Source: Bifidobacterium mizhiense
Lineage (GTDB): Bacteria > Actinomycetota > Actinomycetes > Actinomycetales > Bifidobacteriaceae
Assembly (NCBI RefSeq): GCF_020884755.1
Contig: NZ_BPWE01000003.1
Location: 248,001-312,000, forward strand
DNA length: 64,000 nt
Reading direction: 5' to 3'
Made by a program: the position numbers and the translations under genes. Each line of letters begins with the position of its first letter. Within the stretch, counting starts at the first letter, position 1. The notes beneath the pieces are model-generated. The model was not told the DNA's origin and ran no database searches. It saw only the letters and a program-made list of their open reading frames with translations. Shown piece by piece: positions 48,328 to 53,511 of this stretch.

Positions 48328-49818
48328 TCAGCGGTGAATGAACCGGCTGGGAGCGCGCCGGGCAAAGGCGCTGCCATCCTTGTGCTCTGCATAGGAAAGA
48401 TGCAGGGTGTCCTCTGCTCGGGTCACCCCTACATACATAAGGCGGCGCTCCTCCTCCAGAGCATCCCCCTCGGGCGGTGAGCCAAAGGGAATCAGCCCCT
48501 CGGCACAGCCCACGATGAAGACATGGGCGAACTCCAGCCCCTTGGCAGCATGAATGGTGGAGACCGTGACCCTCCCCTGGCCCATGCCGCTCTCCAGCTG
48601 CTCCAGCACCTCATGTTTGCTCAGATCGACCGACTGGTTCTGCCAGCCCGACTCCGTGCGCACCCGGTAGCCGATTCCGCGTTCGTGCAGGGCACGGCAG
48701 ATCAGGGTCTGCTGGGCGTTGATCCGCGTCAGGATTGCAAACTGGCCTGGCCGGGCCCCCTTCCGGATCATGGAGGATATACGGGAGGCCACGGCCCCAG
48801 CCTCATCACCATCGTCCTCGTAACGGGTCATCGCGACCCTGCTGCCCTCCTGACGGGCTGATTTCAGCTTCAGGTAGTCGTCACGCACCGGCGAGCGAGC
48901 CAGAATGCCATTGGCGTAGTGAACCACCCTTCCCGTGGACCGGTAGTCGGTGGACAGGTCCAGATCGGCCTTGATGCCCGGAAATTCCTGGGGGAAATTC
49001 AGCAAATAGTAGGAGGTGGCTCCAGCGAAGGAGTAGATGGTCTGGGCCGGGTCCCCCACCACGCACAGGTTCTGCCTGCCGTTGAGCCAAAGCTTGAGCA
49101 GGCGGTGCTGGAGGGGCGAGACATCCTGGTACTCGTCCACAGTCAGCCAGCCGATGCGGTCTCTAATGTCAGCAGCAGCCCGGCCGCCCTCTTCCAAAAT
49201 GTGGCAGACCAGCAGAAGAATATCGTTGAAGTCCATCTGATTGTGGGCGGCCTTGGAGCTCTCGAAGACCGTGTACAGGTCGGCCATCCGATCAGCCTCC
49301 AGACCGGCCGGCGGCAGACGGTGGCTGGCCGCACAGACCCGAACGTAATCCTGGGGGGCGATCAGCCCCACCTTGGCCCAGTTGATCTCCGCAGTCAGGT
49401 CCCTGACCTGGCCCGGGTCGGCCTCCTGCCCGCAGACCCGCTGGTAGGCGGAGGACACCAGGGGACCCACATCCTCAATCAGGTCGGGAGGGTAGGTCTC
49501 GCTGACCTGGGGCCAGACCCGCCTGAGCTGGTGCAGGGCCGCCGAGTGAAAGGTCGCCGCCTGCAGAGAGGCCGACACGCCAAGCTTGGTGAGACGATCA
49601 CGCATCTCGGCTGCGGCACGGACCGAAAATGTCACTGCCAAGGTTCTGGAGGGCTCCCAGCTTCCACTGGCGCAGGCATAGGCCATCCGCCGGGTGATGG
49701 TTCTGGTCTTGCCAGCCCCGGCGCCCGCGACGATTCGCACAGGCCCGTCGAGCACGGTGGCCGCCTGCCGCTGGGCGGGGTCCAGACCCTCCAGCAATCG
49801 TTCCTCATCCTCTTGCAC
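48328..49818 (-). CDS. Compact UvrD/Rep-type DNA helicase (UvrD2-like)
   Basis: 496-residue SF1A helicase. Q-motif LDPAQRQAA, Walker A VAGAGAGKTRT, DEYQD, GDPAQTIYSFAGA, LSTDYRST, TIHAAKGLEFAHVF and YVGVTRAEDTLHLSYA are all present, so both RecA-like domains look complete. Mycobacterial UvrD2 is about 700 residues with a C-terminal HRDC domain; this protein ends just after motif VI and lacks that part. GTG 49818 is the start. It is divergent from the APH-fold gene, with 103 bases between starts. Confidence 0.92.
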   Translation of the reverse strand: MQEDEERLLEGLDPAQRQAATVLDGPVRIVAGAGAGKTRTITRRMAYACASGSWEPSRTLAVTFSVRAAAEMRDRLTKLGVSASLQAATFHSAALHQLRRVWPQVSETYPPDLIEDVGPLVSSAYQRVCGQEADPGQVRDLTAEINWAKVGLIAPQDYVRVCAASHRLPPAGLEADRMADLYTVFESSKAAHNQMDFNDILLLVCHILEEGGRAAADIRDRIGWLTVDEYQDVSPLQHRLLKLWLNGRQNLCVVGDPAQTIYSFAGATSYYLLNFPQEFPGIKADLDLSTDYRSTGRVVHYANGILARSPVRDDYLKLKSARQEGSRVAMTRYEDDGDEAGAVASRISSMIRKGARPGQFAILTRINAQQTLICRALHERGIGYRVRTESGWQNQSVDLSKHEVLEQLESGMGQGRVTVSTIHAAKGLEFAHVFIVGCAEGLIPFGSPPEGDALEEERRLMYVGVTRAEDTLHLSYAEHKDGSAFARRAPSRFIHR

Positions 49819-49921: not shown

Positions 49922-51550
49922 GTGAGTGAACGAACGAAGCTGACCCTGGCCGCCCTGGCGTCGGCCGCCATGCCCGAGGTGCCCATGACCGGCGCGCGGG
50001 ACTGCGACCAGCTCAGCAGCCTGGACCGTGCGCAGGGCGTGGACTGCGCCGTGGTCCAGGACGCGACCGGCAATGTCTATGACGTCTGGGCCACCAGCTC
50101 GGAGGCCGGCAAGCGTCGGTTGGGCGCTCGGGTCAAAGCGGCTCAGGCCCTGGCCGATGCCAAGGAGATGGCGGCCATGGGCTTCCGGGTCGAGCGCATC
50201 CTGGCCTACCAGCCCGGCGAGAAGGCGGACAGTCCGACCGGCACCACCGCTGTTGCCGTCATGACCCACTGCCCAGGGCGAATCCGTCCCCTCCACCTGC
50301 TGACCCTGAACGAATGCACCGCCGCGGGCACCGCCATCGGCGCCATCCACCGGGTGCGCCCTGATTTTCTGAAAACCCACGGCTATCCGGCCTTCTCCAC
50401 TGCCCAGATCGCGGCCCAGCTGCGGGGATGGATCAAACGGCTGCGCATGGATGGCCATGTGCCCAAGGAAATCACCGATTCCTGGGCCTCCATCGTGGCA
50501 ACCGAGGGGCTCTGGTCCTTTGAAACCTGCACCGTACACGGAGGCTTCTCCGACGGCGATTTGCTCTACGCGGGCTCCGGACTCAGCGGGGTCTACGGCT
50601 GGCAGGACATGCAGGTCAACGATCCTGCCCGTGACCTGGCCTGGATCTTCGCCAAGCTGGACGGGTCCCGCCGCAACGCCGTCATCGCGGCCTACGGCAG
50701 GATGATGGGGGCCCGGCTGGACGACCTGATCATGCTCAGGGCCAACCTCTGGCTGCAGATGGAGCAGGTGGGCGACTTCATCACCGCCCTGGATCATGCC
50801 GACAACGAACGGATCATCCAATTCAAGGCCCAGGTGGAGCGTCTGGCCCAGCAGTTGGGCGACCACGAGCAGAACCAGCGCGCCCGTCGTCAGCAGCAGA
50901 CTTCCGGTTCGTCACCCACTGGGGCACCCTCCACCATCACCGTGGGCACCCTGCTCGGCGACGACAATGCCGAGAATCCGGCATCAAAACAGGGCCTCGC
51001 CGCGGCAGATGCGGCAACCTCACCTAAGGAACCCTCCTTCGAACCCTCGGATGAGAGCTCGGCCACCATCGCCATCAGCAGGGCAGAAATGGCTGACCTG
51101 GCTCAGACCCAGACCGCCATGGACCATTCCGAAGCCAGGAATAAGCCCATCAGACAGGCCCAGAGCACAAACCTTGGCAGCGACAATCAACCCAAGCCAC
51201 CAGCTGTTGCTCCTGTTGCCCAAGAAGAGGAATCAGGCCTGAGCGATCACTTCCGCGGCATCGGCAGTCCAGCCACCGGCGACAAGGATACGGGTGGCGA
51301 GGCGAATCCAAAGGCTGCAACGAGCGACGCGTCCGTAGACAGCCAGTCCTCGACTGAGGCAGGAGAGACCGCTTCCCAGCCGCATGATGCCTCGTCAGCT
51401 CAAGCCCTCGCCAACGATCAGGCTGAGACCGTCGTCATTCCCAGAAAGCCCCTGCCCGAGCAGACCCCCACGCTCACTGCAGACGGACAGGCATCGGCAT
51501 CACCGCCAGAAAGCGGCTCTTCCCCGGAGGAGCATCAGGGAGACGCTTAG
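49922..51550 (+). CDS. APH-fold phosphotransferase-like protein, probably catalytically inactive
   Basis: 542 residues. The first 310 or so follow the aminoglycoside phosphotransferase fold. The catalytic loop, normally HGDxxxxN, reads HGGFSDGD (His206 onward), so the catalytic Asp is Gly and the Asn is Asp. The metal-binding DWE/D segment reads GWQD before the conserved DPARDLAW. Residues from about 325 to the end are Ser/Pro/Glu/Ala-rich and disordered. GTG 49922 is ten bases after a TATTAT box, so a leaderless message is possible. The gene stands between a UvrD-type helicase and DUF3107, suggesting a binding or scaffold role. Confidence 0.8.
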   Translation: MSERTKLTLAALASAAMPEVPMTGARDCDQLSSLDRAQGVDCAVVQDATGNVYDVWATSSEAGKRRLGARVKAAQALADAKEMAAMGFRVERILAYQPGEKADSPTGTTAVAVMTHCPGRIRPLHLLTLNECTAAGTAIGAIHRVRPDFLKTHGYPAFSTAQIAAQLRGWIKRLRMDGHVPKEITDSWASIVATEGLWSFETCTVHGGFSDGDLLYAGSGLSGVYGWQDMQVNDPARDLAWIFAKLDGSRRNAVIAAYGRMMGARLDDLIMLRANLWLQMEQVGDFITALDHADNERIIQFKAQVERLAQQLGDHEQNQRARRQQQTSGSSPTGAPSTITVGTLLGDDNAENPASKQGLAAADAATSPKEPSFEPSDESSATIAISRAEMADLAQTQTAMDHSEARNKPIRQAQSTNLGSDNQPKPPAVAPVAQEEESGLSDHFRGIGSPATGDKDTGGEANPKAATSDASVDSQSSTEAGETASQPHDASSAQALANDQAETVVIPRKPLPEQTPTLTADGQASASPPESGSSPEEHQGDA

Positions 51551-51639
51551 AGCGTAATCACCCGGGCCAGCGAATAATGAGACCGGAAGAACCGTGGGCC
51601 GGCAGGTCTGGGCGACGGAGAACAACCTTGGAGGTAGCA

Positions 51640-51879
51640 ATGGATATCGAATTCGGCATCAAAAATGTGGCCCGCACGGTCAACTTCAGCACCAATGCCA
51701 AGGCGGATGAGGTGGCTGCCCACATCGCCCAGGCCCTGAACGAGGGCGGACCCATCGATCTGGTGGACGACAAGGGCCGTCACATCATCGTTCCCAAGGA
51801 GTCCCTGGGCTACGCAGTGGTCGGTTCAGACACCACCCATCCGGTCGGCTTCGGTGTCCTGGGAGGCTCCGCCGACTGA
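51640..51879 (+). CDS. DUF3107 family protein
   Basis: 79 residues. MDIEFGIKNVARTVNFSTN, ALNEGGPIDLVDDKGRHIIVP and the Gly-rich end GFGVLGGSAD are typical of this small actinobacterial family (TB9.4 of mycobacteria is a member). GGAGG lies before ATG 51640; the frame is open to 51577 but without a ribosome binding site. It is 89 bases after the APH-fold gene and probably co-transcribed. The function is unknown. Confidence 0.9.
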   Translation: MDIEFGIKNVARTVNFSTNAKADEVAAHIAQALNEGGPIDLVDDKGRHIIVPKESLGYAVVGSDTTHPVGFGVLGGSAD

Positions 51880-51943: not shown

Positions 51944-52831
51944 CTAACCCTTCCAGGCCACCGGACGGCTCCCCCGGGCCCTGTCCACGATTTGGGCCAC
52001 CACCTCGCCACTGGTGCTGTTCTCCCCCATGCGATTGGGCTTGCCTTGGCCGTGCCAGTCCGATCCTCCGGTTACCAGCAGCCCCCAACGCTGGGCCAGG
52101 GCCATGAGCCGTCGACGCTGCTCAGGCGGATTGTCCCGATGCCAGACCTCCAGTCCGCCCAGTCCCTCTCTGGCCAGCGTGGCAATCTGTTGGTCGGAGA
52201 GCAGGACGGGATTACGGTTGACCGCACCAGGGTGGGCGACGACCAGGACACCGCCTGCGTGGTTGACGGCCGCCAGCACCTGGTGGGTGGTCGGCGAGGG
52301 AGTAGGCAGGTAGTAGGCGCTCCTGGAGGAGCAGACCCCGGCGAAGGCCTGGCTCCGGTCGGCATAGACACCGGCCTTGACCAGGGCATCGGCGATATGC
52401 GGGCGGCCCACCGTGGTCTTCGACCCCTCCTTGACCTGGTCCAGCACATCCTGCCAGGTGATCGGATAATCCCGGGAGATCCGCTCAACCATGGTCCTGG
52501 TTCTGGTCAGCCTGGCCTCCCTGGTCTTGGCGAAGAGCCCGGCGATGACTGGATCCTTGGGATCGTAGAGGTAGGCCAGCATGTGAACCGAGACACGGCC
52601 ATCCTGCGCAGTGATTTCGGTGCCCGGCAGCAGGGGCATTCCCAGGGACTGGGCCGCCTGACGGGCCTCATCCCAGCCCGCATTGGTGTCATGGTCGGTG
52701 ATGGCCAGACCTTCCAGTCCCAGCTGCCGCGCCTGCTCGACCATCCCCCGGGGCGTCACGGTGCCGTCGGAGAACACGGTGTGGCAATGCAGGTCCCAGC
52801 CGGAGACCGTGACAGTATCCTCATGCGTCAT
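51944..52831 (-). CDS. PHP-domain metal-dependent phosphoesterase (YciV-like)
   Basis: 295 residues. The PHP metal motifs are clear: DLHCHTVFSDGT (His15, His17), AITDHDTNAGW, the downstream VVAHPGAV and GGSDWHGQ. The closest recalled relatives are YciV/RNase AM and 3',5'-nucleoside bisphosphate phosphatases, which process RNA 5' ends and nucleotides. The exact substrate cannot be read from the sequence. An ATG start at 52831 is divergent from the VKOR gene. Confidence 0.9.
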   Translation of the reverse strand: MTHEDTVTVSGWDLHCHTVFSDGTVTPRGMVEQARQLGLEGLAITDHDTNAGWDEARQAAQSLGMPLLPGTEITAQDGRVSVHMLAYLYDPKDPVIAGLFAKTREARLTRTRTMVERISRDYPITWQDVLDQVKEGSKTTVGRPHIADALVKAGVYADRSQAFAGVCSSRSAYYLPTPSPTTHQVLAAVNHAGGVLVVAHPGAVNRNPVLLSDQQIATLAREGLGGLEVWHRDNPPEQRRRLMALAQRWGLLVTGGSDWHGQGKPNRMGENSTSGEVVAQIVDRARGSRPVAWKG

Positions 52832-52902
52832 GCCTCCATCCTAAACTCGTGAACGCGTTCCCGTCTCAGAGAACCCTCCCGACCATTGAGGTGATGGACC
52901 CC

Positions 52903-53511
52903 ATGAGCGAACCGACCTCGTCAGCCCCTTCCAGCTATCTGATTGCCGCCCTGACCTCGTTTGCGGCGCTCTACGCCAGCCTGGTTCTGTCAGCGGAAAC
53001 CCTGCAACTGGCGCGTCACCCCCAGGGCCAGCTCAGCTGTGACATCAACTCGGTGGTCTCCTGCTCAGCCGTGGCCCAGTCCCCCCAGGCCGAACTGATC
53101 CGCCTGGGGACCCTGCCGATCCCCAATGCCTTCCTGGGGCTGGTCGCCGAGGCCGTCTTCCTGACGCTGGCCGTAGTGGGCCTGTGCCGGATCAAGATGC
53201 CTACGCTGCTGGCGGCAGGGACCTGGCTGGCCTCGCTTGCCGCTCTGGCCTACGCGCTCTGGCTGTTCACCCAGTCGCTCTTCGTCATCCACGCCCTCTG
53301 CCCCTGGTGCCTGGTCATGACCTTCGCCACCAGTCTGCAATTCATGGCCTTCAGCCACGCCACAGTCATCCAGCAGGGTCTGCCGCGCAAGAGGTCGGGA
53401 TGGCTGCTGACATACTATCAGCGGCATTTCGATCTGATGGTCGACCTGGTCTGGCTGGTCGCCCTGGCCACTATCGTCCTGGCTGTGGAAGGATCCGCCC
53501 TCTTCGGCTGA
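52903..53511 (+). CDS. Vitamin K epoxide reductase family protein (VKOR)
   Basis: 202-residue membrane protein that passes electrons to quinone to re-oxidise a DsbA-like partner during disulphide formation. The active-site CPWC pair is Cys133/Cys136, and the loop cysteines are Cys46 and Cys54. About five helices are visible. There is no fused thioredoxin domain. GAGG precedes ATG 52903 (MSEPTSSAP) at a better distance than the other in-frame starts. Its stop abuts the dapF stop directly. A secreted cysteine-rich protein at 8571-9458 could be a client. Confidence 0.93.
   Translation: MSEPTSSAPSSYLIAALTSFAALYASLVLSAETLQLARHPQGQLSCDINSVVSCSAVAQSPQAELIRLGTLPIPNAFLGLVAEAVFLTLAVVGLCRIKMPTLLAAGTWLASLAALAYALWLFTQSLFVIHALCPWCLVMTFATSLQFMAFSHATVIQQGLPRKRSGWLLTYYQRHFDLMVDLVWLVALATIVLAVEGSALFG

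Follow-up and report, generated by a model that had tools for sequence, protein, structure and literature searches.

This study indicates that the protein encoded at positions 49922-51550 of the window (the whole 64,000-nucleotide stretch of Bifidobacterium mizhiense DNA that was analysed) is probably a pseudokinase of the Mph/APH fold, in which binding is the conserved family function and which acts as an adaptor or scaffold; we put the probability of this reading at about 0.65. Given that catalysis has been lost repeatedly while the gene has been retained almost universally, the function common to the family should not be phosphotransfer. As the parts needed for phosphate transfer have gone independently in several lineages and the bifidobacterial protein carries a tail with conserved motifs, its most likely mode of action is the binding of other molecules, not catalysis. 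An earlier note on this DNA had proposed a binding or scaffold role, perhaps in DNA repair. The first part is still the inference that best follows from the data, and the motifs in the tail strengthen it; for the second, gene adjacency is the only support.

Gene layout and predicted fold

The gene lies on the forward strand (49922..51550), starts with GTG and encodes 542 residues, with its stop codon at 51548-51550 and orthologs in relatives. The nearest named orthologs, from Bifidobacterium choladohabitans, Bifidobacterium asteroides and Bifidobacterium mellis (asteroides group), are 97% identical over the domain. The reading frame had been described as APH-fold, and this was borne out by a match of PF01636 (Pfam APH) to residues 74-260 with an E value of 1.1e-12 and 48.6 bits, the curated cut-off being 23.2. 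A Glyco_trans_4_4 match in Pfam on residues 76-169 fell below its own cut-off and was judged spurious. Sigma-70-like promoters and terminators were searched for around the gene, and none were found, a result that is uninformative.

In the AlphaFold model, which was built with 61 sequences, residues 1-327 (49922..50902, forward strand) adopt the two-lobed APH/Mph fold with a pLDDT mostly above 90. LAALASAAMP (residues 9-18) forms part of the N-terminal helix of this domain. The remaining 215 residues (328-542; 50903..51547, forward strand), previously described as a long disordered tail, are indeed predicted to be disordered, with a pLDDT below 60, and below 50 for most of residues 346-542.

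Foldseek and VIA-align grouped the domain with macrolide 2'-phosphotransferases. The best solved match was MphH of Brachybacterium faecium (PDB 5uxb/5uxc), with a Z score of 22.9, an rmsd of 4.0 and 15% identity for 283 residues aligned over residues 1-308. This match and the high-confidence model support the claim that the fold has been retained. The order-wide family profile likewise matched MphA (5igh), with an E value of 2.6e-30. The cut-offs of the NCBIfam Mph models were missed by far, with 12-15 bits compared with the 500-640 needed. The fold is therefore common to MphH, MphA and the pseudokinase domain, whereas the disordered tail is a feature of the pseudokinase.

Loss of the active-site residues

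With regard to the active site, the order-wide profile aligns the family loops to those of MphA (HGDLYVGHVL...MIDWSEARVDDPA) and of MphH (HGELYPAHTL...VLDWTTAAVGDPA), and the window protein aligns with MphH there without gaps. These alignments place Gly208 on the position of the catalytic Asp and Gly226 on that of the metal Asp. The degenerate catalytic loop, H206GGFSDGD213 (50537..50560, forward strand), thus reads HGG in place of HGD, and the metal strand reads V-Y-G226-W-Q-D, the degenerate metal site GWQD occupying 50597..50608 of the forward strand (relatives have N, H, R or K in place of the metal Asp). The earlier reading of GWQD as a replacement for a DWE/D metal site is therefore upheld. 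Its description of the catalytic loop as HGGFSDGD instead of HGDxxxxN was correct for the change of Asp to Gly208 but not for the Asn as a fixed residue, since family members with apparently intact kinase residues have H, N, S or Q there, a variability that resembles Mph enzymes. The Asp of GWQD was considered as a substitute catalytic Asp and ruled out, as relatives have N, S, G or E at this position.

The losses extend throughout the family. Among 96 Bifidobacteriaceae sequences, the catalytic Asp (D208) is present in two and the metal Asp (D226) in none, while the beta3 basic residue (R/K56; W56 in the window protein) is found in one and the alphaC acidic residue (E/D70; R70 in the window protein) in three. 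In comparison with MphH and MphA, the pseudokinase thus lacks the catalytic Asp, the metal Asp, the beta3 basic residue and the alphaC Glu. The replacements are nearly fixed in the same set, with G208 in 92 sequences, G212 in 92, D213 in 93 and R237 in 93; HGGFxDGD and NDPARDLAW are near-invariant. H143, H206, D234, P235 and D238 are retained, and DPARDLAW (residues 234-241; 50621..50644, forward strand), which includes the structural Asp, is the most conserved stretch of the domain. Outside the Bifidobacteriaceae, both Asp residues are kept in only 31 of 93 sequences, and the metal Asp is lost more widely than the catalytic one.

Judged by its sequence, the protein is a pseudokinase: it has a kinase-like fold from which the canonical catalytic residues are gone, and it is retained under selection. 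The suggestion that phosphotransfer has been lost appears strongly supported by the four residues missing family-wide, the fold, purifying selection and the independent losses described below.

Selection on the domain and the former pocket

Among close species of the asteroides group, dN/dS is approximately 0.01-0.1 for the domain and 0.3-0.5 for the tail. Within the Bifidobacteriaceae, entropy is 0.83 bits for residues 204-214 and 0.53 bits for residues 225-241, compared with 1.29 bits for the whole domain; beta3 (1.56) and the hinge stretch (1.80) vary more than the domain does overall. Conserved loops next to a variable beta3 and hinge suggest that the site is kept for a purpose other than nucleotide turnover.

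One such purpose, a sub-case of the binding role, would be to sense a nucleotide or a small metabolite without turning it over and to signal through the tail. Around the former pocket, the rim residues (G207, G208, D213, W227 and DPARDLAW) rank with the best-conserved positions of the domain, which speaks for a sensor. However, these residues may instead be structural or touch a protein, and the genomic context indicates no ligand, so that a sensor is possible but on the unlikely side.

The strong conservation of the loop, with Asp213 in nearly every sequence, could also point to an atypical active enzyme, in which D213 (or D211) of HGGFxDGD would take part in metal binding or catalysis of some other transfer chemistry. 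Asp213 stands at the second metal ligand position and, together with Asp211, does allow atypical chemistry, which counts against a purely binding protein. Pseudokinase-like enzymes with other chemistry exist, and SelO AMPylates with altered residues. SelO, however, has kept its nucleotide and metal site more fully than the present pseudokinase, in which the beta3 basic residue, the alphaC Glu and the first metal Asp are gone in nearly all members and the hinge and beta3 show comparatively high variability. We therefore regard an active enzyme as quite unlikely.

Distribution and evolutionary history

The gene was present in all 53 well-assembled relatives of a first set and in 158 of 159 genomes of the order, 153 of them with a clear match and five with weak matches in fragmented assemblies; orthology of distant members was assigned by synteny for the loci read and by profile for the remainder. 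Across the phylum outside the order, only generic APH matches were found. In a quickly built tree without bootstraps, from which the active-site columns had been left out, nearly all families were recovered and 19 groups required 19 changes, the minimum possible being 18, which indicates vertical inheritance. The gene is thus a core, syntenic and vertically inherited gene of the order.

On the same tree the catalytic Asp underwent at least nine changes of state, Glu at this position not being scored as a loss because MphH itself has Glu there. The residue is lost in the Bifidobacteriaceae (family f1), in 8/8 members of f19, 6/8 of f6 and 5/8 of f17, and in single members of f8, f9 and f11. AU tests rejected single clades of f1 with f19 (p 0.00036), f1 with f17 (p 1.7e-5) and f19 with f17 (p 0.014). 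On these sequence comparisons, the catalytic Asp has been lost independently several times across the order. That the direction was loss rather than gain rests on the Mph relatives, which have Asp or Glu.

The disordered tail and its motifs

The tail averages 254 residues in named species; A, D, T and S are abundant, and aromatics and Cys are scarce. Its background has diverged freely and is too divergent for a good alignment. Motifs were counted in 77 named tails and compared with shuffled sequences, which ignore shared ancestry. Soon after the domain, motif 1, [TS][IVLM]T[VI]x[TDSN]LL (also written [ST]T[IVL]TV[GN][TD]LL), occurs in 69/77 tails against a shuffled mean of 0.0; in the window protein it is STITVGTLL (residues 337-345; 50930..50956, forward strand). 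Motif 2 occurs in its loose form, T-x-[IVLM]-[IVLM]-P-[LRKHV], in 54/77 tails (0.4 in shuffles) and, when defined strictly as T..[IVL]PLLE, in 43/77 (0.0 in shuffles). T..IPLLE is the version of most species, and the window protein has ETVVIPR (residues 502-508; 51425..51445, forward strand). Two further patterns are [ST]xT[IVM]x[ILV], found in 53 tails compared with 3.9 in shuffles and represented here by SATIAI (residues 380-385; 51059..51076, forward strand), and DxTG[ED], in 39/77 tails compared with 2.2. As far as the sequences tell, conserved motifs 1 and 2 are new in the present analysis.

A DNA pattern for T-x-T-V-G-x-L-L matched only the pseudokinase gene in the genome, and motif 1 was not seen among the non-bifidobacterial tails read. 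Four of those tails (L058, L059, L061 and L071) have acidic, Thr-rich ends with T-x-x-hydrophobic motifs (MTQAFLPDF, DDTAEVPL, DTPTAEFPP and EETAEIDVSP), which may be a looser motif 2. Folding of the tail back onto the domain as a pseudosubstrate was also considered and is unsupported, the pLDDT of motif 1 being approximately 50-57 in the full-length model. In one genome (G022, L041/L023), the reading frame is interrupted past approximately residue 305, and two overlapping frames encode the domain and the tail; an assembly error, a true frameshift or a separate tail are candidate causes.

These features suggest how an adaptor or scaffold could operate. The rigid domain would dock one partner or ligand through the remodelled active-site cleft and the N-terminal helix, and the tail would recruit further partners through its linear motifs. 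The absence of motif 1 from 8/77 tails, and the displacement of the G022 tail into another frame, count against this scheme. More speculatively, the Thr motifs of the tail may be sites of the genome's own Ser/Thr kinases and be read by FHA proteins, a possibility that arises because the same genome has five domain matches to Ser/Thr kinases and four to FHA. The most elaborate version would be a core adaptor that already acted by binding across the whole order, which made kinase activity expendable and allowed its repeated loss. In the Bifidobacteriaceae it would have become a hub, with Ser/Thr-kinase/FHA signalling connected to a conserved process through phosphorylation of the tail motifs (STITVGTLL, TxxIPLLE and acidic Thr motifs). 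In this full form the proposal is unlikely.

Genomic neighbourhood and the helicase

The neighbours named by the earlier note, a UvrD-type helicase and DUF3107, were confirmed. The UvrD2-like helicase gene (48328..49818, reverse strand) is divergent, with a gap of 103 bp, and the DUF3107 reading frame (51577..51879, forward strand; its true start is possibly the ATG at 51640) is co-directional and possibly on the same transcript. The gap between the pseudokinase and DUF3107 is about 108 bp or less in 63/76 named loci. The cluster had been called conserved-looking, and the order YlbL/Zincin_2/UvrD/APH/DUF3107 is in fact shared by most of the 80 named loci from Bifidobacteriaceae; across the order the cluster is also kept, with other genes in between. 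DUF3107 is followed by a PHP-domain gene (51944-52831) and a VKOR gene (52849-53511), in an order conserved in many Bifidobacteriaceae. A helicase-nuclease of the UvrD/PDDEXK (AdnA/B) type stands beside the APH gene in two order relatives checked; in the present genome an AdnAB-like helicase-nuclease pair lies away from the cluster, at C2:94180-101903.

The UvrD2-like helicase has intact SF1A motifs, and structurally it most resembles UvrD, Rep and PcrA (Z approximately 39-41). It has no 2B subdomain, only 61 residues separating the flanking 2A segments compared with 131-156 in order relatives, and it is missing the HRDC domain of those relatives; residues 390-413 are disordered in the model. 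Removal of 2B activates the Rep helicase. By this analogy, the bifidobacterial protein, a natural form without 2B and HRDC, could be constitutively active.

The pseudokinase might be a cofactor of this helicase, perhaps replacing the missing regulatory parts 2B and HRDC, and the close divergent placement of the two genes in almost every member of the Bifidobacteriaceae would fit such a partnership. However, the two are neighbours within a broader cluster that also includes proteases and DUF3107, and outside the Bifidobacteriaceae the two genes are often more than 1 kb apart. Strict coupling of APH death to helicase truncation is ruled out by families f6 and f17, in which dead or half-dead APH proteins occur together with full-length UvrD2 of 700-722 aa. 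A cofactor role is thus improbable. The proposed role in DNA repair has no support beyond adjacency: YlbL (a Lon-type protease), a zincin and DUF3107 are encoded in the same cluster, the APH gene does not extend beyond a single order, and the loss of kinase residues is untied to changes in the helicase.

Least credible of all, and close to negligible, is a decaying gene, a former resistance-type kinase heading for loss: the fast-evolving tail and its frame break in one genome would fit, but purifying selection on the domain, retention in all well-assembled relatives and the fixation of new residues across the Bifidobacteriaceae already contradict it.

Significance and comparison with known pseudokinases

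As a near-universal gene of a large order in which the enzyme function is repeatedly dead, the gene points to a cellular function that bifidobacteria and related genera have conserved. Species with an intact active site and species with a dead one constitute a natural experiment on what the protein binds, and the conserved tail motifs are ready-made baits. Such genes should not be annotated as antibiotic phosphotransferases. The main text of a paper on essential genes of B. breve UCC2003 names no phosphotransferase (PMC5514069).

With regard to known systems, the families ActPs1-3, GLW, CP1, DYD and DLHK are also bacterial pseudokinases, many of them actinobacterial and several with all canonical motifs degraded, but all belong to Ser/Thr-kinase (bSTK) families; the text of the review describing them mentions aminoglycoside kinases solely as targets of drugs (PMC12599244). 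A functional parallel for the proposed adaptor is the mycobacterial MviN (MurJ) pseudokinase, described as a docking module with a phospho-Thr that is read by the FHA protein FhaA (PMC10166564, citing Gee et al. 2012). Both are actinobacterial pseudokinases, and phospho-Thr/FHA recognition is the analogy proposed for the tail. In contrast, the MviN pseudokinase is, according to the same source, part of a membrane flippase whose role in the cell wall is known, whereas the conserved Thr motifs of the bifidobacterial tail are candidate phosphosites.

The bacterial spore kinases YtaA/CotI, CotS, YutH and YsxE, compared here by description, offer an evolutionary parallel; the nearest solved relatives of the pseudokinase are Mph enzymes. 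They belong to the APH/choline-kinase-like superfamily, and several lost the catalytic Asp independently while keeping the fold-stabilising His and Asp (PMC2860764). They differ in being spore-coat proteins of Bacillales and Clostridiales, whereas the present protein belongs to the bifidobacterial order, is encoded beside UvrD2 and bears a tail with motifs. From the repeated emergence of pseudokinases among the spore kinases, their authors infer a common non-enzymatic function (PMC2860764), which is the same reasoning as that followed here: where catalysis is lost repeatedly, the shared function is non-enzymatic.
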